Source of the DNA: Candidatus Pacebacteria bacterium CG_4_10_14_0_8_um_filter_42_14
GTDB lineage: Bacteria > Patescibacteriota > Microgenomatia > UBA1400 > PJMF01
NCBI GenBank assembly: GCA_002784625.1
Contig: PFLP01000044.1
Location: 1-39,222, forward strand
Reading direction: 5' to 3'
Length of the DNA stretch: 39,222 bases
Shown here: one piece after another, positions 8,678 through 39,221 of the stretch
How positions within the stretch are numbered: the first letter of the stretch is position 1
Layout of the letters: every line of letters begins with the position of its first letter
Translations under genes and position numbers: made by a program
Notes under the pieces: model-generated
Told to the model about the DNA's origin: nothing
Databases searched by the model: none
What the model saw: only the letters and a program-made list of their open reading frames with translations

Positions 8678-8863
8678 CTAAATTCGACAATGAGCAAACT
8701 GTTTTAGTGCTCCTGAAAAACTACTGATTTTTCTTGACTTAACTGACTCAAATAAGAGTTCTCCACAACTGGGGGAGTGTATGCAGGGTGAAACATATCC
8801 AAAGACACTGGTTAAAATTGAAATTCTCAAAGTTCTCGTAAAAATATATAAACTTCTTAACAT
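8678..8863 (-). CDS. yidD: YidD-like membrane insertion efficiency factor (short)
   Basis: CIHSPSCGELLFESVKSRKISSFSGALKQFAHC aligns to the YidD core (CxFxPTCSxYxxEAI...RCHP); lies between rnpA and yidC. Confidence 0.7.
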   Translation of the reverse strand: MLRSLYIFTRTLRISILTSVFGYVSPCIHSPSCGELLFESVKSRKISSFSGALKQFAHCRI

Positions 8864-8865
8864 AG

Positions 8866-9201
8866 TTATTCGTTTTCATTAAGGCGCTGCAGCATTGTAT
8901 CAAGATCGGCGAGTATCTGCTCTTGATCATTGCTCCCTCTGGAGATGATAAGTGCATAATCTCCACCAGGCCATATCCCTAAATCTATTTGTTTTTGCCA
9001 GACTTCTTCGTACTTACGGCGGAGAGAATTTCTTTGGGAGGAAAGGGGAATATTTTTAGAAACTACTCTTACCATACCTTTGACTAGATCTGTCTTATCT
9101 AATCGGTAATACATTCGAGACTGTCTCGATTTTACCAGAGAAGCGGTAGAGAAAAAGGTTCGATCAGCTCTGAGCTTAAATTGGTTTAGTCGAGCCAACA
9201 T
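8866..9201 (-). CDS. rnpA: Ribonuclease P protein component
   Basis: Position directly after rpmH; FFSTASLVKSR..., SSQRNSLRRKYEE (RNR-like motif), GGDYALIISRG. Confidence 0.85.
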   Translation of the reverse strand: MLARLNQFKLRADRTFFSTASLVKSRQSRMYYRLDKTDLVKGMVRVVSKNIPLSSQRNSLRRKYEEVWQKQIDLGIWPGGDYALIISRGSNDQEQILADLDTMLQRLNENE

Positions 9202-9202
9202 A

Positions 9203-9346
9203 CTAGGCAGAAACAGAGAGTCTTGTTCGCCCCTTGTTTCGACGTCTTTTCAGCAATTTTCGACCAGCAAACGTTCTCATTCTTTTCAAAAAACCATGCT
9301 TTCGCACGCGTTTTTTTCGTTTTGGATTCCAGGTTCGTTTTGTCAT
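9203..9346 (-). CDS. rpmH: Large ribosomal subunit protein bL34
   Basis: Hand translation: [47 protein letters not shown], a clear bL34. Absent from the ORF track because of its length. Confidence 0.95.
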
Positions 9347-9378
9347 GAGGAGAATATTATACCAGAAGAATTTTTAAG

Positions 9379-10485: not shown

Positions 10486-10730
10486 AGGGGTTAGTGTAAC
10501 TTTTTTATTATTAATTAGTAGTTGTAATAGTAGTAGGTAGGGCTAGACTCGGTGATAAGAGAGCGTTTTTACTCTGGTAGAATCCTGTGAATAACTCTGT
10601 ATATAACCACTGAAAAAACCTGTGGATTGTCTGAGGATAGAAGTTGAAAAGGGTGGACAACATTAAAATTTGGGGGTGAACAAGTATCATTCTTTCTCAC
10701 ATCTTTTCACATACTGTCCACAGGATATAA
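10486..10730. other. oriC: Candidate oriC: dnaA-dnaN intergenic region with DnaA boxes and a DnaA-trio-like repeat
   Basis: TGTGAATAA (10586-10594), TGTATATAA (10598-10606), TGTGGATTG (10621-10629), TAG-TAG-TTG-TAA-TAG-TAG-TAG (10516-10536), AT-rich TTTTTTATTATTAATTAG. Confidence 0.6.
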
Positions 10731-12289: not shown

Positions 12290-14194
12290 TTATTCAGGTT
12301 CTGGGGGTTCGTAGGAGTTTAGGCCTGGATTAGCAACTTCTCCTTGAGAGGAGGCCGCTTGTCGATTGGCTAGGATCTGCTGTTTTTGAAGTAATTCTTC
12401 TGGGTCGGTAGTAATGAGATTGTGTTCTTCGTCGCTAGCCACCACTCTTAGGGCCACGTGATTTTGTCCGGCAAAGAAGATGCCCTCTCCGACGTCAGCG
12501 GTAACAAGTAGTTGTCTCTCTCCTTGAGATAGGTAAAAAGTTTGGGCTAGAATCGGAATCGAGGCCGTGGATTGTTTCATCAAAAACTGAATAGAAGCAT
12601 TGGAGATAATGGCTTTACCGTAATCGCTAGAAATAAAATCTTCCACGTCTTGAGTGATGGTAGTAATGCCAAGATAATACTTTCGTGCTCTTTTCACCAT
12701 CGAGTGAATAAATGAAGCAGAGTCTTTGCTCTTCATGAAGTACCAAGCTTCGTCGATAACGAGAATACGTCGTTTAAGAGTTTTTTTCACTCTCGTCCAG
12801 ATGAAATCAAGAATAATATACATAGCGATTGGTCTCATTTCCTCTTCCATCTCTTTGACGGAAAAAACTGTGAGTTGGTTGGTAATATCAATATTGGAAG
12901 CTTGATCAAAAATACCTCGGAATGAACCAGTAATAAATTTTTCCAGGCGGGCAGCTACGTCATCGGCGTCCTGATTTTCCATACCAATCAAGGCTTTGTA
13001 AACATCTTCCATCAGGGGTGGCTCTAGGGTTTGGGTGGCTGGGTCAGGAGTAATGCCCTTCGCCTTGTAGGCGGCGACCAGAGCTCTGTCTAGAAGCGCG
13101 TCTTGTTGAGCGCTCATTTCTCCAAGCATGACTTTAAGAAGACCATGTAGGGAAATAATTTTTTGACCTAGTTCATTCTCGCCCTCTTCGTAAACATTCG
13201 AAAGATCAAAAGGATTGATTTTTGCCTCTGAGCCAAAAGTGAAGTTTATATACTCTCCACCAACGGCGGTGGTGAGATCTTCGTACTCGTGCTCTGGATC
13301 AAGAACAATAACTTCGGCTCCAAACATTAGTTGTCGCAGAATTTCTAGCTTGACGGTATATGACTTACCAGCTCCGGACTTGGCCAAAACCATCATGTTG
13401 GCATTTTCCATTTTAAAGCGGTCAAAAATAACTAAGGAATCATTGTGCTCGTTGATTCCATACATAATGCCAGTTTCCATGGTGAGCTCGGAGGAAGTAA
13501 AGGGAAAGGTGGTCGCTAAAGAGGTAGTATCCATGTTTCTAGTCACAAGCAACTTGTCGACGCCCATAGGGAGGGTGGTTTTAAAACCCTCGTCCATCTG
13601 GAGAGTGGTGCGCTTTGAGACAATAAGGAGAGAGCCGAGAGTAGATTGAATATTTTTGGTGACTTTGTCGAGCTCTTCAAGGGTTTTGCCAGAAACAGTC
13701 ACATAAAGGCCGAACTGATAAAAGCGCTCTGATCCTTTAGCCAGTTCTTCCCGAATAAAGCGGGCGTCTTCGAGTTTAACTTCGGTGTTGATGTTGCTTA
13801 TTTTCCCAGATCGAAGGTCGGATTGAATTTCTGCCTCCATCTCGGTGATTTTGCGCTTGAGATTATCGAGAACTTCCCCAGAGTCCACAGGAAAGATGAA
13901 CATGGCGATCTGCATCTGATGTGGGTAGTTAATGAGGGGCGACAACCAGTTGGCTGGAACGGTTCTCGGATAGCCAGCCACAAACATGGTTCTGGTATAG
14001 GTGGAGTTTATTTTTTGATAGCCAAAGTCGATCTCAATAGCTTCTGGAGCAATGATGTCTTGTATCGTCACTAGACCACGAGAGAACTCTTGAATTTTTT
14101 CAAGTGTCCTTTGCTCGGCAGAAGACTGAGACTCTTTAAGAGCTTTGACTGGCTTCTTTTTGCCAAATGGTAAGAGAGAACTAAGACTGGGCAT
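12290..14194 (-). CDS. virB4: VirB4-family T4SS ATPase
   Basis: Walker A AKSGAGKSYTVKLEIL, VIVLDPEHEYEDL, Walker B RRILVIDEAWYFMKS, TQDVEDFISSDYGKAIISNASIQFLMKQS. Start 14194 set by the -10 box at 14202-14207. Confidence 0.9.
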   Translation of the reverse strand: MPSLSSLLPFGKKKPVKALKESQSSAEQRTLEKIQEFSRGLVTIQDIIAPEAIEIDFGYQKINSTYTRTMFVAGYPRTVPANWLSPLINYPHQMQIAMFIFPVDSGEVLDNLKRKITEMEAEIQSDLRSGKISNINTEVKLEDARFIREELAKGSERFYQFGLYVTVSGKTLEELDKVTKNIQSTLGSLLIVSKRTTLQMDEGFKTTLPMGVDKLLVTRNMDTTSLATTFPFTSSELTMETGIMYGINEHNDSLVIFDRFKMENANMMVLAKSGAGKSYTVKLEILRQLMFGAEVIVLDPEHEYEDLTTAVGGEYINFTFGSEAKINPFDLSNVYEEGENELGQKIISLHGLLKVMLGEMSAQQDALLDRALVAAYKAKGITPDPATQTLEPPLMEDVYKALIGMENQDADDVAARLEKFITGSFRGIFDQASNIDITNQLTVFSVKEMEEEMRPIAMYIILDFIWTRVKKTLKRRILVIDEAWYFMKSKDSASFIHSMVKRARKYYLGITTITQDVEDFISSDYGKAIISNASIQFLMKQSTASIPILAQTFYLSQGERQLLVTADVGEGIFFAGQNHVALRVVASDEEHNLITTDPEELLQKQQILANRQAASSQGEVANPGLNSYEPPEPE

Positions 14195-14215
14195 TACCCC
14201 CATTGTACGCAAGCA

Positions 14216-15325: not shown

Positions 15326-16489
15326 TTAGGTGGTGTTCCTTATTTCGATTGGATCAACGAGTGAGCCTCCGAGAGTAATTGTCTGACTAGGAAACTCTTG
15401 ACCATCCTTCTCGGCCTGAATAACATAGCTGCCGTCTTTCATGGGGGTGGTGACAAAAAATTGACCAAGGGCGTTGGTTTTAACGGCTCTTTCGATTTTT
15501 CCCTCAGGCGTTCTAATCTCAACAATGGCATCGGGAATTAACTCGTTGTCTTTCGATAACACCATGCCCACGAGTTTATTTGGTGTGGTTGGTTTTTCTG
15601 GAAAAGGTAGGTCGGGGTTTAGGGTGGCGGCAGAAGTGGTCGAAGATTGGGCAACATACTGATTTTGGTCGGAAATAAAGACGTGTTCTCCTAAACTTTG
15701 TTGTCCAACAACAGCTGCGTCGTCGTCTTCATCATCCTTGTGCACGACAATAGCTTCTGTTTCAGGAATTTCAATATTTTGAGCGACTTGCTCGGTGGTG
15801 AGATGACTTTTCTTCTGGGAATAGGTGTTGCTGTGTTTTAGAGATTTTATATCAAGAGACTCTTGTTGCGGTACCGCCGCTCCGCTATTTGAGAAGACTG
15901 TAAAAACTTGTCTCAAGGATGGATCCTGTCGAATTCCGCGAACTCTGGTCGATAGATTGGGTTTTTGCACCACGTTTATGTGTGGAGTTTCAAGAGGTCT
16001 TGTCTTGCTAGAGGCAAAGAGGGCCGAAATATTGTTTAGCTGCGACTCTTCAGCTGGAGTTCGATCACTTATTCCCTCGCTATATTGGGTAGAGACGAGA
16101 TATTCCTTGATTCTCTCGCGACGAATGGGGGAGAGATCGACCTCTGCTTCCTGCGGCTGAACGTTTTTTCCTTGTTTAAATAGGAATGGATCGGGAATTT
16201 TTGGTACTCGGCGCCAAAAAAACTTAGTTGGTTTGTATAAAACTTTGTAAAAAGTGACTAACCAATGATCGATTGGCCTTTCTTGAATGGGTACGAAGGC
16301 AGCCAGAGCTCCGCCTCCGAAAGCCAAAACCATAAGAGGCCACTTAATAATGGCAAAAAGATTGGTTGAGTAGATAAAAAATGCTAGGATTGCCCCGAGC
16401 GCCAGCTCGCCAAACTGCTTTAGCGTCATACTTCCTACAATGTGGAAGCGGTAGCCGGTGATATCTTGTGGTATTGGATGTTCTCGCAT
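15326..16489 (-). CDS. PrgI/VirB3-like membrane protein with C-terminal carboxypeptidase-regulatory-like domain
   Basis: MREHPIPQDITGYRFHIVGSMTLKQFGELALGAILAFFIY...FVPIQERPIDHWLVTFYKVLYKPTKFFWRR; C-term GMVLSKDNELIPDAIVEIRTPEGKIERAVKTNALGQFFVTTPMKDGSYVIQAEKDGQEF. Confidence 0.75.
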   Translation of the reverse strand: MREHPIPQDITGYRFHIVGSMTLKQFGELALGAILAFFIYSTNLFAIIKWPLMVLAFGGGALAAFVPIQERPIDHWLVTFYKVLYKPTKFFWRRVPKIPDPFLFKQGKNVQPQEAEVDLSPIRRERIKEYLVSTQYSEGISDRTPAEESQLNNISALFASSKTRPLETPHINVVQKPNLSTRVRGIRQDPSLRQVFTVFSNSGAAVPQQESLDIKSLKHSNTYSQKKSHLTTEQVAQNIEIPETEAIVVHKDDEDDDAAVVGQQSLGEHVFISDQNQYVAQSSTTSAATLNPDLPFPEKPTTPNKLVGMVLSKDNELIPDAIVEIRTPEGKIERAVKTNALGQFFVTTPMKDGSYVIQAEKDGQEFPSQTITLGGSLVDPIEIRNTT

Positions 16490-17484: not shown

Positions 17485-20400
17485 TTATTCCCCACTGCCA
17501 CAACTTGATACGAAGTCACCAATTTTAGTGGTGCCAGTTTTGGCGATTAACTGATCCAGAGAAAAGTCTGAGCCCTGTTTAAGTTCATAGTGAAGATGGG
17601 GCCCCGTTGAGTTTCCCGTACTGGCCATAAGACCAATTGGGTCGCCGGCGTTTATGTGAGTCGGAGTACCACTCGGCGATTCTTTCATGTGGCCGAAGAT
17701 AAGGGTTCCTAGTTTGTCATCTGCCACCAGGCGTCCATAATTTCCATAGCCTCCGTTTGAGGCAGGATCTGTTGCGCCGGTTAAAGTTCCCGAGAATGGG
17801 GCATAGATCGGCGTACCAAGATTTCCTCCGATGTCGTATGCATCGCTGTGATATTCGGCGTGGGAGCTTTTCCCTTCACCATATGGTAGTTGCCTAATAA
17901 ATCCAGTCGTTGGCCAACAACCAATTTTGGGATCACCAATTCTGATAGGACTTGACGCTTGCAAGACCTGGTCATTCGAGATGGGGTTGTCGTATTCATC
18001 AAAAACATCAAAAGTAACTATGGCGCTATTAATTATCAGGCTGTCTTCAAGTTTAGAGCCGTTAATTACTTCTTCGTACTGTGCAGACACCAGATCTTGA
18101 TTGGGCTCAGAAATCATTGCATCAATCAAATTTTGAGATGTTTGAGAGATTGCCCGAGGATTGCTAATGTTAACTCCACCCTCAGAACTACCAGAGAAAA
18201 TCACAATCGAGTCCGCAACTTTAGTGACTTTAATTTTGTAGTTTTGCTTGGGGGTGACCTTTAGAGTATAGGTGGGGTTAATGCTCGCCGTGTTGTTGTC
18301 AAATTGACTTTCTGAAGCAGTTTTTTCAACACTAGCATATTTTGACTGTTCATAAATTGTTTTTGGGCCAATCCCATCACTTGGGACTGAAACCAAGAAA
18401 GCACTATAAATGGTGAATAAAATATGAAGGGTGAGAAGTACGGCAGCGCCAATGGCAATGATTGGTCCTGCAACGGCGGCCATAGCAACAGTTCCGCCCG
18501 CAATGAGTTCGGCCAGGGGGCCAGATGAGGCAGCGGCAGCCGCTCCGCCCGATGTGGCGGCGGGAGCAGAGTAGCTGACTTGAATTGGTTGCGAAGCGGA
18601 AAGAGCCTGAGAGGCGCTGGAGGGGGTGGCGCTAGACGGAGTCACGCTAGAGCCATGAACACTACCAGTCGCGCTAGTACTACTTGCCGTTGACCCCGCT
18701 TGTTCGGCAGCACGCATTTGAGCGAAGGAACCAGAACTAGCTCCTGAGGAAGATAGACCGCCAGAGCTGGATTCCCAGGGAGGAATTGGATTAGATAAAC
18801 CAAGAAAGTTGCTGCCACCACCACCAGTTATTCCAGCGGCAAAGTTTGCTCCGATAGCAGTTCCCAAAATGGGACTCAAAGGGCCAAAAAGTGGTATTAA
18901 AGCAGTTCCTGCAAAACCTCCCAGTGCTCCGCCAATAGCTCCGGCGGGCGTGCTCAATGCATAAAGGGTTTTGCCGATCGCGTAGGCAGCGCCCGCACCT
19001 CCAATTGCTCCCGCTCCCAATAGGATCTTGCGGCCAGTTTTAGTTTTTGCAAGATCTAGTAAAAGTGTAGTTCCTCCAGAAGCAGCTGCCTTTGCTAGGG
19101 ACACAGCTCCTTTTATGGCTTTGCCAGCGGACATGGCCCGAGAGGCAAGACCACTTCTTGCTTGACCACCGCTCTCACCTGAACTGAAGAGCGGCACTTC
19201 TTGATCGCGCATTGTTCTGCCATTTATTTCATAATTTGCAGCATCGACATCTGTTATTTGCTCAGGAACTTTTATTCCAGCCTCTGTTTGTCTAATTAGG
19301 TAAGAAACAGCCAATGGCCCCATTGGAGAGCCTTGATTTGCGACCAATGCTCGAATTTGCTGGGCTTGCACTTCATTGAGTTCATTAAGTTGCTGTGCAT
19401 GAAGAAGCATGGCTGCCGCTATTCTTTCTCTCAAAGCAGCCATAGCGCTATTTGCTTGTCTGACTGACTCAATCAGTTCTTTTCCAGATTCTTGAGATCC
19501 GTTTGTTTGAAAAGCTCCAACAACATTTGGTGCTGATCCCCACGCTCCGGCCATGCTTGCTAGCCCCACAACATGCTCTGGCGAGGCGTCCTGGCCAGCT
19601 AGTCCAGTTTTGGTAATTCCGGTCTCGTCCGCAAGAGCTAGGGATGCTTGATAAGAAACAAGGTGCTCTCCCAGAAGAGCCCTCAGCTCGCCTTTCTTTT
19701 CCGCGGAAAGTCCCTTTAGACTAATACCAAACATCAATTCCAGATTTCCATCAGAGAGCGAGCTGATAAAATCGGTGAGTTTGTTTCGTTGTTCTGCTAC
19801 AGAGACGTCTCCACCAATGGTTAAGCCTATCGTTTTGAGTGTTTCTTCAATATTTTTATTTTGAATTATTGAGTCGGTTCCAAGTATCTTTTTGACTTGG
19901 CTTGCTAGGAGTTGTTCTTGCGTCAAGCTTGGATTTACAAGGGCAACTCCTCCAACGCTTGTAATTCCACCGATGAGCTGCTCCGCATATTTCGGATCTT
20001 GTGTCAGAAAATTAAGTTTATTTTCATCGAGACCATCAACCAACTTTCTGGCCTCTGCCTCGATTTGTCCTCTAAGATGAAATGCTTCAGCGGGATCTAG
20101 GTGAAGGGATAGTTTGGCGACTAAAAGCTCTGTGGCTTTGTCTTTTATTTCACCTAGCTTCTCGATTTTAAGAGCTTCTGCTTTTTGCGTTTCTGTTGTT
20201 GCGACAGCTGGTTCGGCTTTGGGAAGCGATGCAATTGATACTTTTTGTGCAAGTTCTTTGATTTCATCTTTAGGGAAAATATCTGATAAACCAGTTTCTT
20301 CTGAAAGTTTTTTAATCCTTTCAACGATGGTATTTGCTTCTGCGATATCGCCATCCCCAATGGCTTTCTCAACCGCCTGCTCAAGAAATGATTCAATTCT

Positions 20401-21480
20401 GAGAAGAGATCCTTTGTGAGCAATATTGCTTCTAAGAAAATCCTCGACAACTCTGTTTAAGTCTTGCTGGGATGCTGTGCCGAAGAATCTATCTCTGTGT
20501 TCATACTGCTGAAGCCAGGTTATAAAATCACTGTTTATCGACTCTCTGATCTCGGGCAGGAGGTTCTGCATTTCTCTTTCAAGATTGGTGCCCTGAAGAA
20601 TGTCTGTAATTAGTCGTTCGACGACAAGTTGATTTATTAGTTGTAGGTCTGTGGTATGAGCTCTGAGGTCTGTGGTGAATTGCTCTCTAATTGCCTCGGC
20701 ATCAGCATGATTATCTCCTTCCCCATCGCCAGCATCAGAATCAAGGCGACCTTGTCCAAAACCACTTGCCTTTGCTTCTTCAACGAGAGTGTCGAGTTTG
20801 TCTCCAGGTGATTTTCCTCCAGAAATTTTGCCATCACCTGGTTTTTCTTGTTCTGCGGCTGCATATTTTTCGTACTGATCGGCGGCTTGATCTAAGTTTT
20901 TAAGTAGGTTTCTTATATCTTCTGTAGCGTTATTAAAAGCTGTTATGGTAGAAACTATTGATATTTTCCCTCCAGCCCAACCTCCCGCTCTTTTTAGTAG
21001 ATCATCATTTTTGTCCATTGTTGCTGATGGATAATCATTTTTATCATTTGCAAAAAATGTGAGGATATCTACAAATATCCGAATCATGTCGGCAGCCGTA
21101 AGATATTTACTCAACTTAGAATGATCGAGATTCGCGTATTCATTAATGTTGGATGGAGAAAAAGTGGTGAGCTGAGTGTTGCCCGAGCTGCCCCTGAGGC
21201 GCAGGATAATATTTTGGTTATCAATTATCTCGTATCCTCTGTTGTAGCGCAGAAGCTTTCTTAGATTCTTGTATGTCTGGACGACAAGACCCATCTCTTC
21301 GTGGGTAAAAACGCCAAGCTGTTTTATATCTTTAAGATCTATGTGGTCGGAAGCTAAAAAGGTTGGAGCAGGAGGAGGTGCTGTTTGTGGCGGCTCGCCT
21401 ACAACAAATTCAAGTTCTTGCCCTTCTTGAATATCAACTTTTTTTGGTTCTCTAGGATTGCTTTGCCGTAAATCAGCCAT
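17485..21480 (-). CDS. Giant (1331 aa) membrane protein with C-terminal M23/LytM peptidase domain
   Basis: C-term HAEYHSDAYDIGGNLGTPIYAPFSGTLTG...LIFGHM...GDPIGLMASTGNSTGPHLHYEL (M23 H/D and HxH motifs); Ala/Gly-rich hydrophobic region and TM (GTVAMAAVAGPIIAIGAAVLLTLHILFTIYSAFLV). Start 21480 set by the -10 box at 21489-21494. Confidence 0.85.
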   Translation of the reverse strand: MADLRQSNPREPKKVDIQEGQELEFVVGEPPQTAPPPAPTFLASDHIDLKDIKQLGVFTHEEMGLVVQTYKNLRKLLRYNRGYEIIDNQNIILRLRGSSGNTQLTTFSPSNINEYANLDHSKLSKYLTAADMIRIFVDILTFFANDKNDYPSATMDKNDDLLKRAGGWAGGKISIVSTITAFNNATEDIRNLLKNLDQAADQYEKYAAAEQEKPGDGKISGGKSPGDKLDTLVEEAKASGFGQGRLDSDAGDGEGDNHADAEAIREQFTTDLRAHTTDLQLINQLVVERLITDILQGTNLEREMQNLLPEIRESINSDFITWLQQYEHRDRFFGTASQQDLNRVVEDFLRSNIAHKGSLLRIESFLEQAVEKAIGDGDIAEANTIVERIKKLSEETGLSDIFPKDEIKELAQKVSIASLPKAEPAVATTETQKAEALKIEKLGEIKDKATELLVAKLSLHLDPAEAFHLRGQIEAEARKLVDGLDENKLNFLTQDPKYAEQLIGGITSVGGVALVNPSLTQEQLLASQVKKILGTDSIIQNKNIEETLKTIGLTIGGDVSVAEQRNKLTDFISSLSDGNLELMFGISLKGLSAEKKGELRALLGEHLVSYQASLALADETGITKTGLAGQDASPEHVVGLASMAGAWGSAPNVVGAFQTNGSQESGKELIESVRQANSAMAALRERIAAAMLLHAQQLNELNEVQAQQIRALVANQGSPMGPLAVSYLIRQTEAGIKVPEQITDVDAANYEINGRTMRDQEVPLFSSGESGGQARSGLASRAMSAGKAIKGAVSLAKAAASGGTTLLLDLAKTKTGRKILLGAGAIGGAGAAYAIGKTLYALSTPAGAIGGALGGFAGTALIPLFGPLSPILGTAIGANFAAGITGGGGSNFLGLSNPIPPWESSSGGLSSSGASSGSFAQMRAAEQAGSTASSTSATGSVHGSSVTPSSATPSSASQALSASQPIQVSYSAPAATSGGAAAAASSGPLAELIAGGTVAMAAVAGPIIAIGAAVLLTLHILFTIYSAFLVSVPSDGIGPKTIYEQSKYASVEKTASESQFDNNTASINPTYTLKVTPKQNYKIKVTKVADSIVIFSGSSEGGVNISNPRAISQTSQNLIDAMISEPNQDLVSAQYEEVINGSKLEDSLIINSAIVTFDVFDEYDNPISNDQVLQASSPIRIGDPKIGCWPTTGFIRQLPYGEGKSSHAEYHSDAYDIGGNLGTPIYAPFSGTLTGATDPASNGGYGNYGRLVADDKLGTLIFGHMKESPSGTPTHINAGDPIGLMASTGNSTGPHLHYELKQGSDFSLDQLIAKTGTTKIGDFVSSCGSGE

Positions 21481-21560
21481 ACTGACCAATTATACTGTTA
21501 ATCGGGCATGCGAAGCCAGGCGTGTTTATTTTGACTTTTTAAGAGCTAATAGCCATATAA

Positions 21561-21680: not shown

Positions 21681-21740
21681 TGTCTCAATTTGACTAAATT
21701 GCGACATTGAGTTGTCTCAATTTAATAAAAGTGATACAAT
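21681..21740 (+). promoter_or_regulatory. Promoter plus operator-like repeats of the DUF4143 ATPase gene
   Basis: TGTCTCAATTT at 21681-21691 and 21713-21723, inverted AAATTGCGACA at 21696-21706; -35 TTGTCT 21712-21717, 17 bp, -10 TACAAT 21735-21740. Confidence 0.6.
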
Positions 21741-21762
21741 TTCAGAAAATAAAAGGTCAAAG

Positions 21763-22893
21763 ATGTTTGATAGAATTCTAGAAAAGCGCATTGAGCCGTA
21801 TCTCTTCCGGGGACGAGTTGTTATCATCTATGGACCTCGAAGGGTTGGTAAGACTACTTTGGTTAAGAAAGTATTGGCAAATCACCCTGAAAAGCGTACT
21901 TTATATCTTAACTGCGACCTACAATCTGTTCAGGAAAGTTTAGCTGTACAAGAAGCGACAATGCTCAAGTCATTTTTAGGAGAAAGAGATCTAGTTGTTT
22001 TAGATGAGGCCCAGAATGTTCCAGAAATTGGCAAAGTTCTCAAGATTTTAGTTGACACCTATCCAGAAATGCAAATTATTGCCACGGGGTCGTCTTCATT
22101 TGATTTGGCCAATCGCACTGGAGAGCCATTGACTGGGAGAGTGTATCCTTTGCGATTATACCCAATATCGCTGAGGGAATTGGCGGGAGAAGATGGCTTT
22201 AACTTAATTGAGCCGAGGCTTGAAAACTTACTTAGGTTTGGTCTTTATCCCAGCATCATCGATTTGTCAGAGAAAAATGCTCAGTTTGAACTTCAGGAGC
22301 TTGTTTCTAGTTATTTGTATCAGGACGTTCTCGCTTACCTCGGTTCAAAACAGTCAAAAATGGTTAAAGACTTGTTGCGCCTTCTAGCTTTGCAGATAGG
22401 TAACGAAGTGTCATTTCAAGAGCTGGGTGGTATCTTGGGAATTGATAGGAGAACAGTGGCTTCTTATATCGATATTTTGGAAAAATCTTTTGTTATCTTT
22501 ACCCTACGTGGTTTTAGTAGAAATCTTAGAAAGGAAGTTGGGAAAACCCAAAAGATTTATTTTTATGATGTCGGAATTAGAAACGCCCTGTTGCAGGCGC
22601 ACGCACCAATCGCCCTAAGAAACGATGTGGGCGCACTGTGGGAAAATTTCTGCGTTGTTGAAAGGATTAAAAGAAACAATCACCTAGCAATTTTTAGTAA
22701 CAAATATTTTTGGCGCACATATGATCAGAAAGAAATTGATTATATTGAAGAACGAGATGGCATTTTGAGTGGTTTTGAGTTCAAGTGGAGTCCAAAGCGA
22801 ACTATGAAGGTACCCAAAGAATTTTTAGAAACTTATCCAAACAGTAGTGTTGAAAAAATAGATAAATCAAATTATTGGAGCTTCTTACTCTAA
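21763..22893 (+). CDS. DUF4143-type AAA ATPase (copy 1)
   Basis: YGPRRVGKTTLVKKVL, LVVLDEAQNVPEIGKVLKILVD, IIATGSSSFDL, LAGRVYPLRLYPIS-like sequence, LRKEVGKTQKIYFYDVGIRNALL, IDYIEERDGILSGFEFKW. Confidence 0.85.
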   Translation: MFDRILEKRIEPYLFRGRVVIIYGPRRVGKTTLVKKVLANHPEKRTLYLNCDLQSVQESLAVQEATMLKSFLGERDLVVLDEAQNVPEIGKVLKILVDTYPEMQIIATGSSSFDLANRTGEPLTGRVYPLRLYPISLRELAGEDGFNLIEPRLENLLRFGLYPSIIDLSEKNAQFELQELVSSYLYQDVLAYLGSKQSKMVKDLLRLLALQIGNEVSFQELGGILGIDRRTVASYIDILEKSFVIFTLRGFSRNLRKEVGKTQKIYFYDVGIRNALLQAHAPIALRNDVGALWENFCVVERIKRNNHLAIFSNKYFWRTYDQKEIDYIEERDGILSGFEFKWSPKRTMKVPKEFLETYPNSSVEKIDKSNYWSFLL

Positions 22894-29661: not shown

Positions 29662-31494
29662 CTACTCGGCTCCCAAATCGTCTGGAACGGTTCCGTCTCT
29701 TTGAGCAGCTGATTCGGGTGGTTGCTCTCCCTTAATCTTTGTTGAGTCTTCCTTGATTGCGTCTTTTGATGTGCCTCGCTTCTGAGTATTCATTAGCCCA
29801 AGCCTATTAAGCGCTGCAGAAACTGCTGCCGTACCCCTAAGGACATTCTCTCCTTTAGCACCCAATTTTTCGACTGCACTTACTCCCTTAAGAATAAGTG
29901 GTGATGCCATTGCTCCAGCGGATAAGCCAGTTCCCCAGGCCATGCCACTCTTCGCACCCTCGGACACATCTTCTCCTTTTCTGCGTGCACGTATCGCGCC
30001 AACGCCAGCTCCTAATGCCCCTCCAAGTCCGATTGCAACTGGAGCGGCCGCTATTCTCGCCCCTGTGTTCACGATATTCTTAGCATTCATCCCCAACGGC
30101 ATCTTACCACTCCATGCATTTTTCATTCTCCCCCCAGCCCACCCAGCTATCTCTCCACCAATCCCATCGTTAGCTCCAAGAGATGTTTTGATCTTTTTCA
30201 CTAGTTCTGGCAGGGCTAAAAGAAGCGCAAACCCAAGAAGTGGTCCAGCTACTCCCGAAGCACCATTGCCAACTAAGAAAGGAGGCATAAAACCACCAGT
30301 CTGAACTGATGAACCAGTTTTTTTACCAGCCTCAGTGAATTCGTAAAAAAGCACAACGACGAGGAGAACGGCGGGGAAAGCTGCAAGATTTCCAACCAAG
30401 TTTTTAAACCAGGGCATAAAGGCATTTTTTCCAGGGATGGCTCCAAGCATAAGAAATATTGGCGCAGTGACGACGCCAATGATTATGGAAGCATATGATT
30501 TCAGCAGTTCAAAAAAGAGGCGAAAAATTCCAATGACTACGGCAATACCTAGAACGACAGCCAGAGTAAGACCGCCAATAAAAGAAATAATTCCTTGAAC
30601 AGAGTCATTTACGTTGGCCAAGGAATCAATCAGCACATTAATTAGATTTGTCACTTGACCATCTTTGTATAAGCCTATGATGGAGCCGAGCAGGTTGCCG
30701 CCCAACTGAAAAATATTCATACTAATAATATCAGCACCTATAGCCCCAGATTTTGTCAGATCAGAAAAAAGTCCAACGATCATAAACATACTTAGATACA
30801 TGAGATCGATAAGAAAGCCCGCGATAGCATAGGAGAAAGTCACAAGGATAAGACTAATGATGATAGAAGGAATGGCCTGTTGGGCTGTAATAGCTGCTTG
30901 ACCGCCGATTTTTTGGCGAAACATAATCATAAAGCCAATGACGATGAAAATGATGATGAAGAAATAATAAGAGATGTTACGGAATTTTTTCCAGAGATCG
31001 AGGATTGGGTCTAAGGAAGCGAAACCAAGTCCTTGGGCGTAAGCAGGCTGAACTCCGGCGGTTTTCATAACGTCAGCTACATAGCGACTCGTCTGGGCGG
31101 GTGGATAAGCATACATGCCGACGATGGCTCTGGTTAGGCCGTTAACTGCGCCACTGCCTGTTGAGAAGGATACGGTTGAGCTTGATGGAAGTGAATCTAG
31201 AGTTGATGGGAAACTATCAGATTTTTTTGGAGGAGCCGCTTCCCCCATGATGTCATACACCCACTCCATGGCGACGAAACGAGTGGTGTTTTTGACGAGA
31301 CATTCTAGAGAAGGTGATTCGCAGAACTCAGTAGCAGCTCTGTAAGCATCTAGCTCTTCGCTGAAGATGCCGTAGCTATTTCCAGTTGGATCAATGGGAT
31401 TTCCTCCATCGCCTTCTGCAGCTTGCACTGGCGCCACCGAAACAATCAGAGCAACCAACAAAAACAAGACGGTAGTGAGGAGCCGTTTCCACAT
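29662..31494 (-). CDS. VirB6/TrbL-like polytopic T4SS membrane protein
   Basis: Signal-like N-terminus (MWKRLLTTVLFLLVALIVSVAPVQAAE), multiple TMs (ISYYFFIIIFIVIGFMIMF; AIPSIIISLILVTFSYAIAGFLIDLMYLSMFMIVGLF; LTLAVVLGIAVVIGIFRLFFELLKSYASIIIGVVTAPIFLMLGAIPG), Gly/Ala-rich C-terminus. Confidence 0.7.
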   Translation of the reverse strand: MWKRLLTTVLFLLVALIVSVAPVQAAEGDGGNPIDPTGNSYGIFSEELDAYRAATEFCESPSLECLVKNTTRFVAMEWVYDIMGEAAPPKKSDSFPSTLDSLPSSSTVSFSTGSGAVNGLTRAIVGMYAYPPAQTSRYVADVMKTAGVQPAYAQGLGFASLDPILDLWKKFRNISYYFFIIIFIVIGFMIMFRQKIGGQAAITAQQAIPSIIISLILVTFSYAIAGFLIDLMYLSMFMIVGLFSDLTKSGAIGADIISMNIFQLGGNLLGSIIGLYKDGQVTNLINVLIDSLANVNDSVQGIISFIGGLTLAVVLGIAVVIGIFRLFFELLKSYASIIIGVVTAPIFLMLGAIPGKNAFMPWFKNLVGNLAAFPAVLLVVVLFYEFTEAGKKTGSSVQTGGFMPPFLVGNGASGVAGPLLGFALLLALPELVKKIKTSLGANDGIGGEIAGWAGGRMKNAWSGKMPLGMNAKNIVNTGARIAAAPVAIGLGGALGAGVGAIRARRKGEDVSEGAKSGMAWGTGLSAGAMASPLILKGVSAVEKLGAKGENVLRGTAAVSAALNRLGLMNTQKRGTSKDAIKEDSTKIKGEQPPESAAQRDGTVPDDLGAE

Positions 31495-31608: not shown

Positions 31609-32463
31609 ATGATTGATGCAGCCAAGATTACTCAGGTTTCAGAGCTTTTTGCCCAAGCTAAAACAATTTTTGTAATGGTTCCTAGCCAAATTTCTGCAGA
31701 CCAGCGTGCGGGAGCAGAAGCCTTGGTTTCTAGCTTTGTTGGCGCGGGCAAGGAAGTCCAGTTTTTTTCACCAGAAGAAATTCACCACGAGTCGTTTCCT
31801 GAGTCGGAGGATGTTATTCCGCTTCACGAGCTTGGCAACCAAAATCTTTGCGTCAGTTTCGAGTATCTTCCCGAACAAGTTGATAATGTTAGCTACCACA
31901 TTGGGGAAAAAACTGGTCGATTTTATCTGACCATCCGTCCACAGAAAGGGCAGAAGCCCCTAGATCCTAAGACAGTGGAATATTCCTATACAGGTGCCGA
32001 AGCAGATCTGATTTTTACAGTTGGGGTGAAAGATCTAACGGAATTAGAACAGCTATATTTAGAGTATGAAGATTTTTTCAACAAGCTACCGATTATTAGC
32101 ATTAATTCTTTTGATCCAGAGTTTGCCGCTGCATCAGTGAACACGGGCAGCAGTCCCAGTGTTAGTCAGGAAGTGGCGCGGCTAATTTCTGATCTTGGCC
32201 TGGATATATCTTCTGATTCAGCCACGAAGCTGTTATTTGGTATCGAGTCGGCCACCAAAAATTTCTCTTCACGAACTGCCAATGCCGAGACTTTTGAAAC
32301 AGTTGGCAGACTTATGAGAAGTGGGGCCAGAAGAATTTCTCAACCAAATCCTCCTCAAGCGAATATTCCAGGAATTAAAACTCCAGCTACAATCGCTCCA
32401 TCAGGAGAAATTAAGGTTCAGGAAAAGAAGGCTGTTTCCAAGAAAAAAGTGGCTAAGGGATAA
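31609..32463 (+). CDS. DHH-phosphoesterase-like protein with degenerate catalytic motifs
   Basis: Order of DHH-like elements: AKTIFVMVPSQISADQ..., EADLIFTVGVKDLTEL, PIISINSFDPEFAAASVNTGSSPSVSQEVARLISDLGLDISSDSATKLLFGIESATKNFSS. Expected DHH and GI..DT..F residues are substituted. Confidence 0.55.
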   Translation: MIDAAKITQVSELFAQAKTIFVMVPSQISADQRAGAEALVSSFVGAGKEVQFFSPEEIHHESFPESEDVIPLHELGNQNLCVSFEYLPEQVDNVSYHIGEKTGRFYLTIRPQKGQKPLDPKTVEYSYTGAEADLIFTVGVKDLTELEQLYLEYEDFFNKLPIISINSFDPEFAAASVNTGSSPSVSQEVARLISDLGLDISSDSATKLLFGIESATKNFSSRTANAETFETVGRLMRSGARRISQPNPPQANIPGIKTPATIAPSGEIKVQEKKAVSKKKVAKG

Positions 32464-33613
32464 GATTTGACGCTGATTTCCAATTAATCAATTTAGTTTT
32501 CTTTATTTTGTCGGTTTCTCCTGTATAAATAATTGCACTCTCAGTTATGTTTTCTTGCAGTTCGTCCCAAACCTTAATTCCTTTTAGATAATCTGAACTG
32601 AAGGTACTTCCAGCCTTAATCTCAATTGGGAAAATTTTATCTGCATCTTTAACCAGAACATCTATCTCATTTTTTTCACTATCTCTCCAGAAATACAATT
32701 TTGAGCTGGATCTCGAGTTGAAAATTTGCTTTTTCAGATCTGAAACAATCATGTTCTCAAAAATACTGCCGATTGCGGAGTGAGTACTTAGTTCTTTTTC
32801 ACTATCTATACCCAATAGGCTGCAAACCAAGCCAGTATCATAAAAGTAAACCTTGGGGGATTTGATTACACGTTTACCAAAATTTTTATAAAAAGGCTGA
32901 AGTCTAAAAGCAATATAAGTGGACTCTAATAAAGAAATCCAAGAATCAATCGTTTTATGGTTAACTCCAACGTCATTGGCTAGGTTTGAAAGATTTAAAA
33001 TTTGCCCAGTGCGGCCTGCTAATAGCTGCAGAAATCTCTGAAAATTAGTAAGATCACCTATATTTTTCACTTGCCTGACGTCTCTCTCTGTGTATGTGGC
33101 AATATAATCAGGATACAGATCTTTTGGATCTAAGGATTGGTCATAAATACGCGGATAAAAACCATATCTGAGTTGTTCTAGGTAATTTTCTTTTAGATTT
33201 TTAGATTTGACTAATTCACTAATACTTAGAGGCAAAAGGCTAAAAATTGCTACTCTTCCAGCTAACGTTTGAGATACCTTTTCCGAGAGGAGTAAGTTCT
33301 CGGAGCCAGTTAGCACAAAGCGAGCTGGTTGAAAATCCTCATCAATTTTAATCTGAATATATGATAATAAATCTGGATACTTCTGGACTTCATCTAGAAT
33401 AATGCCGGAATTATGCCCATCTATAAACTGTTTAGGGTCTTGGGCTATTCTATTTCTGAGTTGGATATCTTCTAAATTGTAATATTTGTGTTTGGGGAAA
33501 ATTTCTTTTACAAGAGTTGTCTTACCCGATTGCCTAGGTCCCATTATTGTGATAACCCCAATTTTTTTTGAGGCCTCAGTAATCTTATTCTGCAGATCTC
33601 TCTTGATTTTCAT
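32453..33613 (-). CDS. DUF4143-type AAA ATPase (copy 2)
   Basis: IMGPRQSGKTTLVKEIF, SGIILDEVQKYPDLLSYIQIKID, FVLTGSENLLLSEKVSQTLAGRVAIFSLLPLSISEL, KVYFYDTGLVCSLLGI, FWRDSEKNEIDVLVKDADKIFPIEIKAG. Confidence 0.92.
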   Translation of the reverse strand: MKIKRDLQNKITEASKKIGVITIMGPRQSGKTTLVKEIFPKHKYYNLEDIQLRNRIAQDPKQFIDGHNSGIILDEVQKYPDLLSYIQIKIDEDFQPARFVLTGSENLLLSEKVSQTLAGRVAIFSLLPLSISELVKSKNLKENYLEQLRYGFYPRIYDQSLDPKDLYPDYIATYTERDVRQVKNIGDLTNFQRFLQLLAGRTGQILNLSNLANDVGVNHKTIDSWISLLESTYIAFRLQPFYKNFGKRVIKSPKVYFYDTGLVCSLLGIDSEKELSTHSAIGSIFENMIVSDLKKQIFNSRSSSKLYFWRDSEKNEIDVLVKDADKIFPIEIKAGSTFSSDYLKGIKVWDELQENITESAIIYTGETDKIKKTKLINWKSASNLIP

Positions 33614-33719: not shown

Positions 33720-36700
33720 TTAAGCAGGCGTATCACATGGATACGGGTAGTTGATCGGCGGAGCTACGGCATCTTTCTCAGTTTCTTCGCGTAGTCTCTG
33801 CCAGAGTCTCCACACATAATCAGCTTGGGGTTTATGACCGTTCCAAATCTGACCATAGCTATTTTCACCTTTTACTGCGAAGGCGTTTACAAAAGCAGAA
33901 TTGTCGTTCGGATGATTTTGCATACCAGTCCACATAATAAGCCGGCAGGCGGAGTCTGCTGCAGCCTTGATATTGGTGGGGGATGAAAAGTCGAGACTAT
34001 TCTTCACAGATTCAGTGAATGTTGGTGGTTGGCTCAAGCCTTGGGCACATTTTTGTTGGGGGGTGATCGTAGTTACAGCTGCGGGTTGATAGGTCTTCCA
34101 TACGTTCCAACTCCCTGGTGTAAATTGGAAAACTCCGAGTGCGCCAGCGCCGTTTGCAATTTTATGATTTGTGTATGTACGACTTTCTGAATGTGCTACT
34201 GCAAGCACAAGTAGGGGATCGCAGCTATGCCTTGCCTCAGCATCTTTAATTGTGCTCCAGAGTTCCTGAGAGGGCAATGAAAATGTTGTCATCTCTTCGT
34301 TCCAGTATTCAATATCAAATGAAACATCTTTGCCAAAATTAGCAACGCTGCCGACAGAAGTGTTATTTACTTCATCGCACGGCACTTCTTTAATAACATT
34401 GGGAAACAAGTTTTCGCAGGTTTGATCATCTGATGGTATTCCTGGTGGTATTGTAAATGGCTTGCCAAAAAGTTTTTCATACAGTTTTAAATTTAGTTTA
34501 TCTGAATCTTTCTGTTCACTCCACATCGAGAATGAGCCAGATCCGTTGTTTCCTCCACAGCTATTGTTAAGTGCTAGGTTGTATCCAGGCTTCTCGAGTT
34601 TGCACCACGCAGCCCCTTCTACTACAAGTTGTTCATTTAAGCCCTCGCTGCCACCAGGCATTCGTGAGTTTTTAGTATTTATTGCACAGTACTCAGTGCG
34701 ATCAGTGCTACCCATGCCGATTGGAATCAGGGATACACCAACCTTGCCACTTGGGGTTCCAGAAGAGCTTTCTTTGGATGTTTCTTGTTTATAATTAATA
34801 TATTCAGTTAAGTTCATCAAGCAGGCATTGCCTGGGTTTTTAAGAACGTAGTATCCAGGCTTTACTTGCAAGCTCGCCACTACATTAGTCCAGTTGGATT
34901 CGGGGGCAGTGATGATAACCAATCGAGTGCCGTGGTTAGACCAATATCCTTCGTTTTTAATCATATCTTTTGGTGTATTTGCTGGTAAATGCCACAGCTC
35001 AACTGACGCTGCTTTCTCTAGGAAAGGACCTGTACAACGACCCATTTCGTTATACTCATTTTTTCCTTGACCTGGATTGACGGCTACCACCTCGTTGGTT
35101 GTCAGCAAAGTAGCGCCATCGATAAATCTAGACGCAAATTGAATACGATATGGAGATTTTCTATCCAGGAAATAGCCCTCAGCTCCAGTCGGCAGTTCTT
35201 TGCATTCGCCATCCCTTGCCATGCAAATTCTTATGTTTGAAAGAGTGCTGTTGGTAACACTGAGCTCGGGGGTGCGACAATATGTAAGTGATTGCTGTGG
35301 CTCTACTTCGCCGACACCCGCACACCTGTCAAGTAAAAATTCTTCAACTGTTTCGCAAGAGGCCAAGTAGTTTTGGACATTGCTGGATTTTTTGGCGAGA
35401 GTTCGTTGAATAGCTCTCAAGTAATAACCAAACTTCGCTCCAAGAACTTGAACAGGTTTGGCTGCATACTCCAGAGAGGTGGTCATACATTTAGTGAAGC
35501 TCCCATTTTCTCTTCCACATATTGACCCATCATCTGAAAACCACGGGAATCTGGACTCATGAGAGTCTTTGCTAAGACTTGAGACCCCGTTATACAGTTC
35601 AAATCTTTTATTATTATCTTCATCTTTCTCAAGCTCAGCAATTTGATCCTTAGTAAGAAAGCTCGCCTTAAGAACATTTGTCACGCTCTCGAGCTCATAT
35701 CCAACGGGATACACCAAATACATTTTTACACTTGCAGATTGTGAGTCCTTTCCGGAGCGAGTCTGACCATTTACCACAAACAAGCTTTCAAAGGATCTTT
35801 GAGCGCTGTCTACTTCAGTACTTTCAGATATTGTCGAAAATATGCTAGAAAGCAGCTCATTTCCAAATTGAGTTTGAAATTGAGAGCGCGGAGATTGGGT
35901 GAGGGCAGCTGCGCTATCAGCAATGGTGTTCCAGTTATCAATTTCACTATCAAGAACACACGAGAAGTCTTCTTTACCTGCTTCTGCGTTAATGATATCT
36001 GTCAATGCTTTTACTAGATCATCTCGACATCCTTCGCTTTTGTTTTCGCCTTCGGCACAAAATATTTCTAACTCATTTTTTTGGACACTCATTTCTGCGC
36101 TCTTATCTAGTAGAACTTGTCTTGTATCATTTTTGGTTAAGTTCCAAGATGTTTGTTGTTCTGTTGAAAGAAGTGAGTCACGCGTCAGCATCGCGCCGTC
36201 AGAAAAAACTGGATATGCTCCAGACTCATAAGAGCCTTCAAGAGGTTTATTAGTAATAACGTCTGGAATCCGAAACGCGACAACCAAAACCTCGTCACGA
36301 GGGTCTGATTTATTTGCAAAGAAACTAAACAAGGGATTTATATCCTTGATCTCTTCAATTGAGATGACTACAAATCCGAGTCGATATCCTTTTTCAATTG
36401 TGAGTGGAACCTGGGTAAAATCACGAAAAAGTTGTTTTTTTATTTCTACTTTGGATTGCTGAAGGCCACTACATATTTCTCTAGGAGTTTTATCAAAAGG
36501 ATTAGAAGAGGAGTACGCTTCTAAGAGCTCCTTCAAGGCGTATGAGGTATTGGGTATTTTTTGCTCGTAGAGGGCGCAAGTATCAGGATTTACGAGCTTT
36601 TTACACATCTCGTCTTGAGCTAGCAAGTTATTTATTCCTTGTGCACAGCGCTGGTCTTCAGTTAGGAGTGACTCAATTGGAGCAGAACCAAGCTCGCTAT

Positions 36701-38105
36701 GAGAGTACGTTTGGCCGCTATCTTCTTGAAATGTCCAATAGCCTTCATAGTCGCTTTTGAGCTCATATTTTCTTTGGGTATCTCGAAACATGGGGTACTC
36801 GGAAGATCCTAAGTTGAGGCTGAAGATAGGACTTAATTTAAATTCATCATTGTTGCTTTGCTCGAAGTATTTCTCAACTTCTCCAGAAAACTCAGCAGAA
36901 ACAGCGCGCTCAGGAGATGCACAGTAGGCTTGGTAGCCTTGGCGGATTAGGTCTTCACGAATTTTGTCTACCGAGCGACCTTCGACAAGATTTGAAATAG
37001 GTGAGACGTGAAATGTGCTAACCGCTTCTTTGCTTCCTCTACCAACTCCACCACATAAGTCTTGTTTGCTCTTGGGGGCATATCCGCAACTTTCAGAACA
37101 TTCAACCAATTTGTTTTCATTCGCTGACATCCACTTCTGAAACTTACTTCCATCTTCCATGATTTGGTCTTGCGAAATGGTTGTTCTTTGAACAGATCCA
37201 CCTTCACATTTGTTTCGATAAAAGTTAGTCACTTGAGGAGCGGTATAGAGATTCCAGTCTCCTGGAACATGCGGGTCATACGAGAAAATCGCAAACATCT
37301 CAAACTTAGAATCTCCAGCCCAGTCACCCCACGATTTATTAAGCATTTCTATGAGTTCGTTATCTCGATAATGTAAATTTCCACCCGGGTTGGTGCCTGT
37401 GACGCCGGATTCTAGAGCGTAGATTTGATTTGGGAGATTTAGTTCGCCGTAGCGACAGTTGTTGTCGTAGGAACTGTTGGCGACACAAGCCTTATAATCT
37501 AAACTCAGTGCTTGGTCATACTCATTGATGGAACTACCACTAGCTAGTCCATAGTATTCATCCCTTGTTAGTCCGCCATTGGAAAAGAACTGCTCATAGT
37601 TTGGGTGCAATTTATTAACCATCGGGGATAACAGTACAACCTTTGTATTGAGCAGGCCTGAGGCCTCAAGTTGTTCTTTGAGAGTGTTAACGTACATGTA
37701 TGACTCTCGTGCAGCATTGTCACCTCCACCCTCGTTATCATGATTTGGCTCGTTCCAAGGCATAAAGAAAACTTTTTGACCCTTGGTATCAAGTTTTCCG
37801 AGAGTTGCTACCCAAGCAAATGCCTCATCTTTGGTAAATGGACGACCATTGTTATAACCACGAAGTACTACGTTGAGACCTTGGCCAAAAACGTTATTTT
37901 CGATTTTTCCGCAGTCACCATTGGTGCCAAGCGCCACAAGCCAGCCACCCTCTTGGGTCAGATCGTGGACGCGAGGGGCTTCTTCGTAATACGGTCCAAC
38001 ATTGATTCCGCATTTATTCTGCGCTTGTACAAGAGAAGGAGCTGAAAAAGAGAATACTCCAGCAAAAAGAACTACAACAACCAATGAAAGAATTCGAAAT
38101 TTCAC
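33720..38105 (-). CDS. Giant (1461 aa) secreted protein: clan-A glycosidase-like N-terminus and SLT/VirB1-like lytic transglycosylase C-terminus
   Basis: Signal peptide MKFRILSLVVVVLFAGVFSFSAPSLVQAQ; FFMPWNEPNHDNEGG and QIYALESGVTG; C-term LVLAVAHSESRTYTNHKIANGAGALGVFQFTPGSWNVW. GTG start. Confidence 0.75.
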   Translation of the reverse strand: MKFRILSLVVVVLFAGVFSFSAPSLVQAQNKCGINVGPYYEEAPRVHDLTQEGGWLVALGTNGDCGKIENNVFGQGLNVVLRGYNNGRPFTKDEAFAWVATLGKLDTKGQKVFFMPWNEPNHDNEGGGDNAARESYMYVNTLKEQLEASGLLNTKVVLLSPMVNKLHPNYEQFFSNGGLTRDEYYGLASGSSINEYDQALSLDYKACVANSSYDNNCRYGELNLPNQIYALESGVTGTNPGGNLHYRDNELIEMLNKSWGDWAGDSKFEMFAIFSYDPHVPGDWNLYTAPQVTNFYRNKCEGGSVQRTTISQDQIMEDGSKFQKWMSANENKLVECSESCGYAPKSKQDLCGGVGRGSKEAVSTFHVSPISNLVEGRSVDKIREDLIRQGYQAYCASPERAVSAEFSGEVEKYFEQSNNDEFKLSPIFSLNLGSSEYPMFRDTQRKYELKSDYEGYWTFQEDSGQTYSHSELGSAPIESLLTEDQRCAQGINNLLAQDEMCKKLVNPDTCALYEQKIPNTSYALKELLEAYSSSNPFDKTPREICSGLQQSKVEIKKQLFRDFTQVPLTIEKGYRLGFVVISIEEIKDINPLFSFFANKSDPRDEVLVVAFRIPDVITNKPLEGSYESGAYPVFSDGAMLTRDSLLSTEQQTSWNLTKNDTRQVLLDKSAEMSVQKNELEIFCAEGENKSEGCRDDLVKALTDIINAEAGKEDFSCVLDSEIDNWNTIADSAAALTQSPRSQFQTQFGNELLSSIFSTISESTEVDSAQRSFESLFVVNGQTRSGKDSQSASVKMYLVYPVGYELESVTNVLKASFLTKDQIAELEKDEDNNKRFELYNGVSSLSKDSHESRFPWFSDDGSICGRENGSFTKCMTTSLEYAAKPVQVLGAKFGYYLRAIQRTLAKKSSNVQNYLASCETVEEFLLDRCAGVGEVEPQQSLTYCRTPELSVTNSTLSNIRICMARDGECKELPTGAEGYFLDRKSPYRIQFASRFIDGATLLTTNEVVAVNPGQGKNEYNEMGRCTGPFLEKAASVELWHLPANTPKDMIKNEGYWSNHGTRLVIITAPESNWTNVVASLQVKPGYYVLKNPGNACLMNLTEYINYKQETSKESSSGTPSGKVGVSLIPIGMGSTDRTEYCAINTKNSRMPGGSEGLNEQLVVEGAAWCKLEKPGYNLALNNSCGGNNGSGSFSMWSEQKDSDKLNLKLYEKLFGKPFTIPPGIPSDDQTCENLFPNVIKEVPCDEVNNTSVGSVANFGKDVSFDIEYWNEEMTTFSLPSQELWSTIKDAEARHSCDPLLVLAVAHSESRTYTNHKIANGAGALGVFQFTPGSWNVWKTYQPAAVTTITPQQKCAQGLSQPPTFTESVKNSLDFSSPTNIKAAADSACRLIMWTGMQNHPNDNSAFVNAFAVKGENSYGQIWNGHKPQADYVWRLWQRLREETEKDAVAPPINYPYPCDTPA

Positions 38106-38600: not shown

Positions 38601-39101
38601 TTAGACGCCGCTAATTGGTTTGACGTTTTGAAGTAAATCATCAAATGATTCAAAACCGAGGAAGCGAATAACTAAAAGGAAAATCGCCCAACTGGCTGCA
38701 ATGATGACAAGACCAATGATGGCATGCATTATTTTTCCTCTAGCATCAGTAATTTTTCCTTGGTCTCCGCCAGAGCTAAGCCAGGAAAAAGCTGCGGTTA
38801 TTAGTTGTAATAGTGTAATCAAAGCGGCAACCAGCATGACGATGGTGAGCACAGAAGTGATTAGCCCGCCAAGAGTGAGGGCATAGCCCTTATAGATGAT
38901 AACTTGTCCGAAAGCGTTTGAACTCATAGTGGTTGTTCCTGAATTAGTGGCAGTAGTAGAAAGATACAGCGTATTGCCGTCTTGCACAACGCCCACTGTT
39001 CCTGAGCTTAGTCCGGTCGTGCTCCCACTAGCTTGAGCTGTGGATATTATCACGAAAAAACTCAATATAGCTAATGATACTATTTGTATTCTTTTGATCA
39101 T
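38601..39101 (-). CDS. T4SS pilin-like protein (VirB2-like), copy 2
   Basis: Signal peptide MIKRIQIVSLAILSFFVIISTAQASG, two TMs, SSGGDQGKITDARGKIMHAIIGLVIIAASW. Start 39101 set by TATAAT at 39109-39114; listed start 39206 probably too long. Confidence 0.75.
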   Translation of the reverse strand: MIKRIQIVSLAILSFFVIISTAQASGSTTGLSSGTVGVVQDGNTLYLSTTATNSGTTTMSSNAFGQVIIYKGYALTLGGLITSVLTIVMLVAALITLLQLITAAFSWLSSGGDQGKITDARGKIMHAIIGLVIIAASWAIFLLVIRFLGFESFDDLLQNVKPISGV

Positions 39102-39161
39102 GTAATACATTATATATCTAACTTGAGAAAAGAAAAGACCTCGAATTGACTCACTAAAAAA

Positions 39162-39221
39162 GTACTCCAAGCATAATCGTTGCCTCAGTAGGAAAATGTA
39201 CTCCAAAAAGATAAGGAGTAC
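39162..39221. repeat. GTACTCC repeats, including a perfect 7-bp inverted pair
   Basis: GTACTCC at 39162-39168 and 39198-39204; inverted GGAGTAC at 39215-39221 (10-nt loop). Confidence 0.5.

Follow-up and report, generated by a model that had tools for sequence, protein, structure and literature searches.

A modular secreted protein with an exchangeable glycosidase-like head as a candidate VirB1-like component of a Patescibacteria type IV secretion system

Which protein opens the cell wall for the type IV secretion system (T4SS) of the ultra-small Patescibacteria, and why should such a protein carry a second, glycosidase-like domain? The question is raised by a 39,222-nucleotide contig (C53; hereafter the window) of Candidatus Pacebacteria bacterium CG_4_10_14_0_8_um_filter_42_14, whose genome assembly of 0.98 Mb is 90% complete. 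Here, a gene for a 1461-amino acid secreted protein (33720–38105, minus strand) lies between VirB2-type pilin genes and a VirB6-like gene. The function of this system in Saccharibacteria, which are the best studied of the Patescibacteria, has been described as completely unknown (PMC11665869). A survey from 2025 inferred that VirB1 is missing from most Patescibacteria with pilins, and it did not find the adhesin PrgB (PMC12102498). We lean toward reading the large protein as a modular VirB1-like wall opener for the T4SS of Patescibacteria, fitted with a glycan-active head that can be exchanged.

Results

Overall architecture of the large protein

The open reading frame runs on the minus strand from 38105 to 33720, as do all its parts given below, and comprises 1461 codons with a GTG start and no internal stop. 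Homologues of the same layout are present in other genomes, which rules out both an artefact and a chance reading frame. Contamination and misassembly were likewise rejected, since the middle domain and the pilin–large gene order are common to four species of the genus. The original prediction, made from the DNA sequence, had described a signal peptide, a glycosidase-like barrel with paired glutamates, an SLT-type core at the C terminus, and about 900 Cys-rich residues between the two enzymes. The motifs that it quoted were found at residues 115–121 (MPWNEPN), 230–234 (ALESG), and 1304–1311 (AHSESRTY), and GAGALGVFQF lies at residues 1319–1328.

According to Kyte-Doolittle hydropathy, only the N terminus is hydrophobic enough to act as a signal or as a membrane anchor; past residue 40, the top 19-residue window averages 1.07. 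By inspection, a signal peptidase site of the VxA type (cleavage between VQA and QN) ends this segment, and the signal peptide predicted by the earlier reading thus spans about residues 1–28 (38022–38105). The protein contains 34 cysteines, 12 of them in residues 361–930 and 10 in residues 931–1245, and the other genes of the window encode 0–9, in agreement with the Cys-rich center that had been proposed. The segment of residues 931–1245 (34371–35315) is found in some relatives only, as judged by alignment and Cys counts. A Pfam search of the protein gave no matches for a CHAP or LytM domain, and a search of NCBIfam returned nothing.

The head is a predicted GH-A type barrel

The head (residues 30–300; 37206–38018) was modeled with AlphaFold2 on a five-sequence alignment (mean predicted local distance difference test score, pLDDT, 75; predicted template modeling score, pTM, 0.80) and shows the pattern of a (β/α)8 barrel. 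Foldseek against the PDB, a check that the original prediction had suggested together with structure prediction, aligned the model with GH26, GH128, PslG (GH39), GH5, and GH113 structures (probability 1.00; best E-value 2.5e-7), which we take to be families of the glycoside hydrolase clan GH-A. Strand 4 consists of residues 112–115 and is followed by Asn-118 and Glu-119, the putative acid/base of the MPWNEPN motif (37749–37751). Strand 7 (residues 227–236) contains Glu-232 of the ALESG motif (37410–37412), the putative nucleophile. The glutamates therefore sit on strands 4 and 7 of the barrel, as a clan GH-A enzyme would have them, and both are invariant in all 14 type A heads, the head type of the window protein, which come from several families. 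Arg-82, Asn-118, Pro-120, Tyr-196, and Gly-234 are invariant as well, and Trp-284 nearly so. From the alignment, these residues represent an active-site set of the kind expected for GH-A. Neither outcome that would have contradicted the original prediction was seen: the modeled fold is a TIM barrel, and the glutamates do not vary among the type A heads.

Residues 1–360 yielded no matches in Pfam, NCBIfam, or PDB sequence searches. With no significant profile match, the head falls into no named family such as GH26, GH39, or GH128; PF11790 is matched by the unrelated type B heads only. Like its best PDB fold matches, the GH39 endoglycosidase PslG and the GH26 and GH128 glucanases and mannanases, the head combines a GH-A barrel with paired glutamates, whereas it shares less than about 17% identity with them and is fused to a T4SS-linked protein. 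On the predicted structure, we consider the head a putative retaining clan GH-A glycosidase.

The tail is a diverged SLT domain

Residues 1246–1461 (33723–34370) form a predicted lysozyme-like fold, and Pfam, fold, and conservation identify this tail as a diverged SLT lytic transglycosylase. Foldseek of the modeled C terminus returned MltE as the top match (probability 0.98, although the E-value is 0.06). The putative catalytic residue, Glu-1307 of the AHSES motif (34185–34187), is invariant in seven of seven sequences. The tail resembles lytic transglycosylases of the MltE/Slt70 type (GH23) in fold and in the conserved glutamate, but differs from them in falling below the Pfam SLT cut-off and in standing at the end of a 1461-amino acid protein.

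No other SLT-like match was found anywhere in the 90%-complete genome. The protein shows two features of a VirB1-like wall hydrolase, an SLT/lysozyme-type domain with a catalytic-type glutamate and a gene located in a T4SS cluster. The earlier expectation of a VirB1-like lysozyme beside the pilins holds for the position; the role is plausible, because the only SLT-like domain of the genome is encoded between the pilins and VirB6. PrgK of pCF10, TraG of pIP501, and Orf14 of Tn916 are likewise T4SS-encoded, multidomain, and extracellular and carry an SLT/muramidase-type domain (PMC12857230). Whereas these proteins contain CHAP or LytM and are anchored in the membrane, the window protein features a GH-A head, a family-specific middle of ∼570 residues, and a C-terminal SLT domain, with no anchor seen beyond the signal peptide. 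It thus shows neither the CHAP/LytM partner nor the membrane anchor of a Gram-positive VirB1, and an M23 peptidase is encoded in another gene of the cluster.

The middle domain is family-specific

The middle domain (residues 362–930; 35316–37022) is defined by alignments and by its distribution. It is present in 28 of 382 sampled genomes of the class, all but one of them (27 of 28) from the family of the source genome itself; named relatives include 'Candidatus Pacebacteria', 'Candidatus Microgenomates', and unclassified Patescibacteria metagenome-assembled genomes. An alignment of 15 sequences shows 36 invariant positions, seven of which are cysteines.

Neither sequence nor fold searches of the PDB found a relative of this domain. 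Foldseek of a model of middle plus tail (pTM 0.50) gave matches for the SLT part alone, and at this model quality, the missing match is weak evidence that the middle may be a new fold. A Pfam match to Nse4_C within the middle (E-value 0.11) was dismissed as noise. Searching PDB sequences with the whole protein and with profiles of the head and the middle reached a best value of 0.024, for a tail-fibre assembly protein, which we treated as chance.

Heads are exchanged between close relatives

An exchangeable N-terminal domain, a conserved middle family, and the wide occurrence of such proteins at this locus had no place in the original prediction. Within the genus of the source genome, the middles of the window protein, L031, and L032/L033 are 46–67% identical (z 197–401), whereas their heads show no relationship to one another (z −0.2 to 1.8); the exception is the pair L032 and L033, with heads 73% identical. 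Instead, the head of L031 is 45–47% identical to its counterparts in L034 and L038, two proteins of other genera whose middles match that of L031 at only 36%.

A second case is found in genus g33, where L114 (9082–11889, plus strand) and L115 (9270–12134, plus strand) share common flanks that are 37% and 35% identical. At the same position between them, L114 carries a GDSL hydrolase, located by motif, and L115 a type C barrel. In the L115 barrel, the half with strands 5–8 lies ahead of the half with strands 1–4, as in a circular permutation, and it is apparently a circularly permuted, inserted barrel. L041 has a head, and L037 and L045 of the same genus have none. By sequence comparison, the differences between the heads of relatives are domain replacements, and such swapping between close relatives suggests a replaceable tool for passing cell-surface sugars.

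A large secreted protein fills the slot across the order

A search of 93 genomes of the order turned up VirB6-like genes in 81. In most sampled genomes, the slot flanked by the VirB2-type pilin array and VirB6 is filled by a large secreted protein. The loci fetched contained 64 usable large secreted-type proteins beside pilins and/or VirB6 on the same strand. In the family of the source genome, the slot protein joins a conserved Cys-containing middle to a head and a lysozyme-like tail that both vary. That such a two-enzyme component is an isolated oddity, as had been suggested, is not supported by this wide occurrence of large modular proteins.

Barrel-type heads were assigned to 18 of the 64 proteins: one by predicted structure (the window protein), two by sequence relationship to it (L043 and L044), two by PF11790 and mutual identity (L032 and L033), one by a sub-threshold Cellulase match (L036), six by profile links to types A or C (L031, L034, L038, L042, L108, and L115), and six only by motif and by resemblance to one another (L035, L041, L046, L049, L101, and L116). 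The assignments of type B and of L036 rest on Pfam. In hhalign comparisons, type A is linked to type C (about 90% probability), and type C to L115 (98%), L042 (65–88%), and L108 (70–85%). Type D is linked to L101 (97%) and L116 (67–80%); its identity as a barrel rests on motifs only, because a link between D and A is absent. A minority of the slot-protein tails gave Pfam matches to SLT, SLT_3, or M23, and many of the others may be too diverged for Pfam to call.

A further non-barrel head type, present in different genera, is found at the same slot in L089 (7094–11494), L039 (6859–10236), and L097 (4274–6493); residues 573–645 of L089 weakly match NAGPA, a phosphodiester glycosidase. In other families, type A heads occur in the same pilin–VirB6 slot or beside PrgI/VirB4. 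One such protein from another family of the phylum, L056 (7230–10529, plus strand), joins a type A head to a segment resembling M23 peptidases and to a tail that is possibly lysozyme-like, and adjoins PrgI and VirB4. Widespread secreted proteins of about 380–600 amino acids from the same class (L164–L170), mostly encoded outside T4SS loci, carry the motif NEPNHASEWGG and are distant kin of the type A head. Their Pfam matches are sub-threshold at best, and from their sequences, they are apparently GH-A glycosidases.

Genomic neighborhood

Directly upstream of the large gene lies a VirB2-type pilin gene (PF18895; 38138–38563, minus strand), followed by a second one (38601–39206, minus strand), which scored just below the PF18895 cut-off as an open reading frame and above it in the genome scan. 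Contig C53 terminates within this pilin array. At the start of contig C55 (198–3462, minus strand), no fewer than seven further matches to T4SS pilins (PF18895) were found, and the array therefore probably continues there, with the two contigs adjoining.

The downstream border of the slot is a polytopic membrane protein (29662–31494, minus strand) named VirB6-like from position and synteny; Pfam gave no matches for it. Between this gene and the large gene, a conserved convergent gene without assigned function (31609–32463, plus strand) keeps its orientation and position in almost all relatives within the family. The cluster further encodes a 1334-amino acid protein with a C-terminal M23 peptidase identified by Pfam (17485–21489, minus strand), a second giant wall hydrolase, together with a PrgI/VirB3-like protein (15326–16489, minus strand) and a VirB4-like ATPase with a TraG P-loop (12290–14212, minus strand), and adjoins what by inspection looks like dnaA. 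Two similar-looking P-loop ATPases (21712–22893, plus strand, and 32453–33613, minus strand; motifs GPRRVGKTTL and GPRQSGKTTL) are inserted in the cluster, with a copy at a comparable place in one relative (L033: 12852–14012).

Discussion

Our favored reading, a modular wall opener with an exchangeable head, is supported by the sequence, the predicted folds, the conserved catalytic residues, the conserved gene slot, and the domain exchange. The large protein would be exported through the Sec route as part of a monoderm-type T4SS, in a Patescibacterium affiliated with 'Candidatus Pacebacteria' and Microgenomates. Its tail would act as a VirB1-like lytic transglycosylase that opens the peptidoglycan locally, making way for the VirB2-type pilus or channel. 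As a scaffold, the conserved Cys-containing middle could tie the enzymes to the pilus/VirB6 assembly, and the head as a retaining clan GH-A glycosidase would trim surface polysaccharide in the path of the pilus. Exchange of the head as a cassette among related lineages would let the substrate vary between strains.

Several observations weigh against this proposal. The head is dispensable, because several relatives (L037, L045, L047, and L050) have none, and type A heads are not specific to T4SS loci, as they also occur elsewhere, for example beside glycosyltransferases (L157–L160). In the close relative L033, the acid/base glutamate has been lost (WNEPD to WNKPD, AAA codon), and some heads may therefore only bind. 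The L033 head (6735–11042, plus strand) retains the nucleophile motif TEIG and is possibly, from its sequence, a catalytically dead, binding-only domain. The tail scores 16.5–20.1 bits against Pfam SLT depending on the stretch searched, below the cut-off of 21.3 bits, which the close relative L031 exceeds with 23.9 bits. Finally, we infer rather than observe the putative enzymatic activities of head and tail, the location of the slot protein and its contact with the pilus, and a target in the glycans of a partner's envelope rather than its own.

This last point leads to the best of the alternatives, which we regard as possible though clearly less probable than the favored reading: that the protein is directed at the producer itself. 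The tail would open the cell's own peptidoglycan for the pilus, as classical VirB1 targets the wall of its producer (PMC12857230), and the head would trim the cell's own exopolysaccharide or capsule in the manner of PslG with Psl, with heads following changes in that polysaccharide. PslG is among the best fold matches of the head, and type A proteins of family f170 adjoin glycosyltransferase-like genes (L157–L160). However, we recognized no glycosyltransferase or polysaccharide genes beside the large gene in the window, and head exchange within one genus, including the GDSL swap in another, would require the own polysaccharide to change equally often.

The loss of the acid/base in L033 also fits a rather unlikely alternative, in which the head, and perhaps the tail, are mainly glycan- or wall-binding modules that grip a partner and replace the missing PrgB-type adhesin (PMC12102498). 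GH128 subgroup VII proteins among the PDB matches are described as oligosaccharide-binding, and for some Gram-positive systems, an adhesin role has been proposed for VirB1 homologues that are inactive (PMC12857230). Pure binders, however, usually lose catalytic residues, whereas all 14 type A heads keep the GH-A active-site set unchanged and all seven tails the SLT glutamate. A fortuitous fusion of a nutrient-scavenging glycosidase to a wall hydrolase with no T4SS role appears very improbable: many glycoside hydrolases of Patescibacteria are thought to feed fermentation (PMC11665869), and type A heads and their distant cousins do occur outside T4SS loci, but the order as a whole retains the location between pilin array and VirB6 despite strong protein divergence, and the middle and tail are still present where a barrel head is missing.

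If the modular wall opener is the correct reading, it invites a comparison with phages. At the tip of their translocation device, phages carry tail spikes and tail-associated lysins, which join an exchangeable glycan-cutting head to a wall-cutting module. The analogy is functional, with no claim of homology; a T4SS, unlike these phage structures, belongs to a cell. More tentatively, the slot protein might be a T4SS counterpart of the tail spike, with a pilus-associated scaffold, an enzyme cassette open to replacement (several types of GH-A barrel, or a GDSL hydrolase) that strips partner glycan, and a wall-cutting tail. Cassette exchange would then shift the partner specificity of episymbiotic Patescibacteria, an attractive idea.

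Because the window protein scores below the Pfam cut-off, divergence may explain part of the reported absence of VirB1 from Patescibacteria; this comparison applies Pfam, not the survey's own profiles, to the slot proteins. A description of the slot protein was not found in the literature searched, which mostly excluded subscription papers. A divergent wall hydrolase with an exchangeable glycan-active head beside the pilins provides a concrete candidate for the missing T4SS component and for how Patescibacteria handle the surface of their partner. Host specificity thereby becomes testable, through the glycan that each head cuts or binds.

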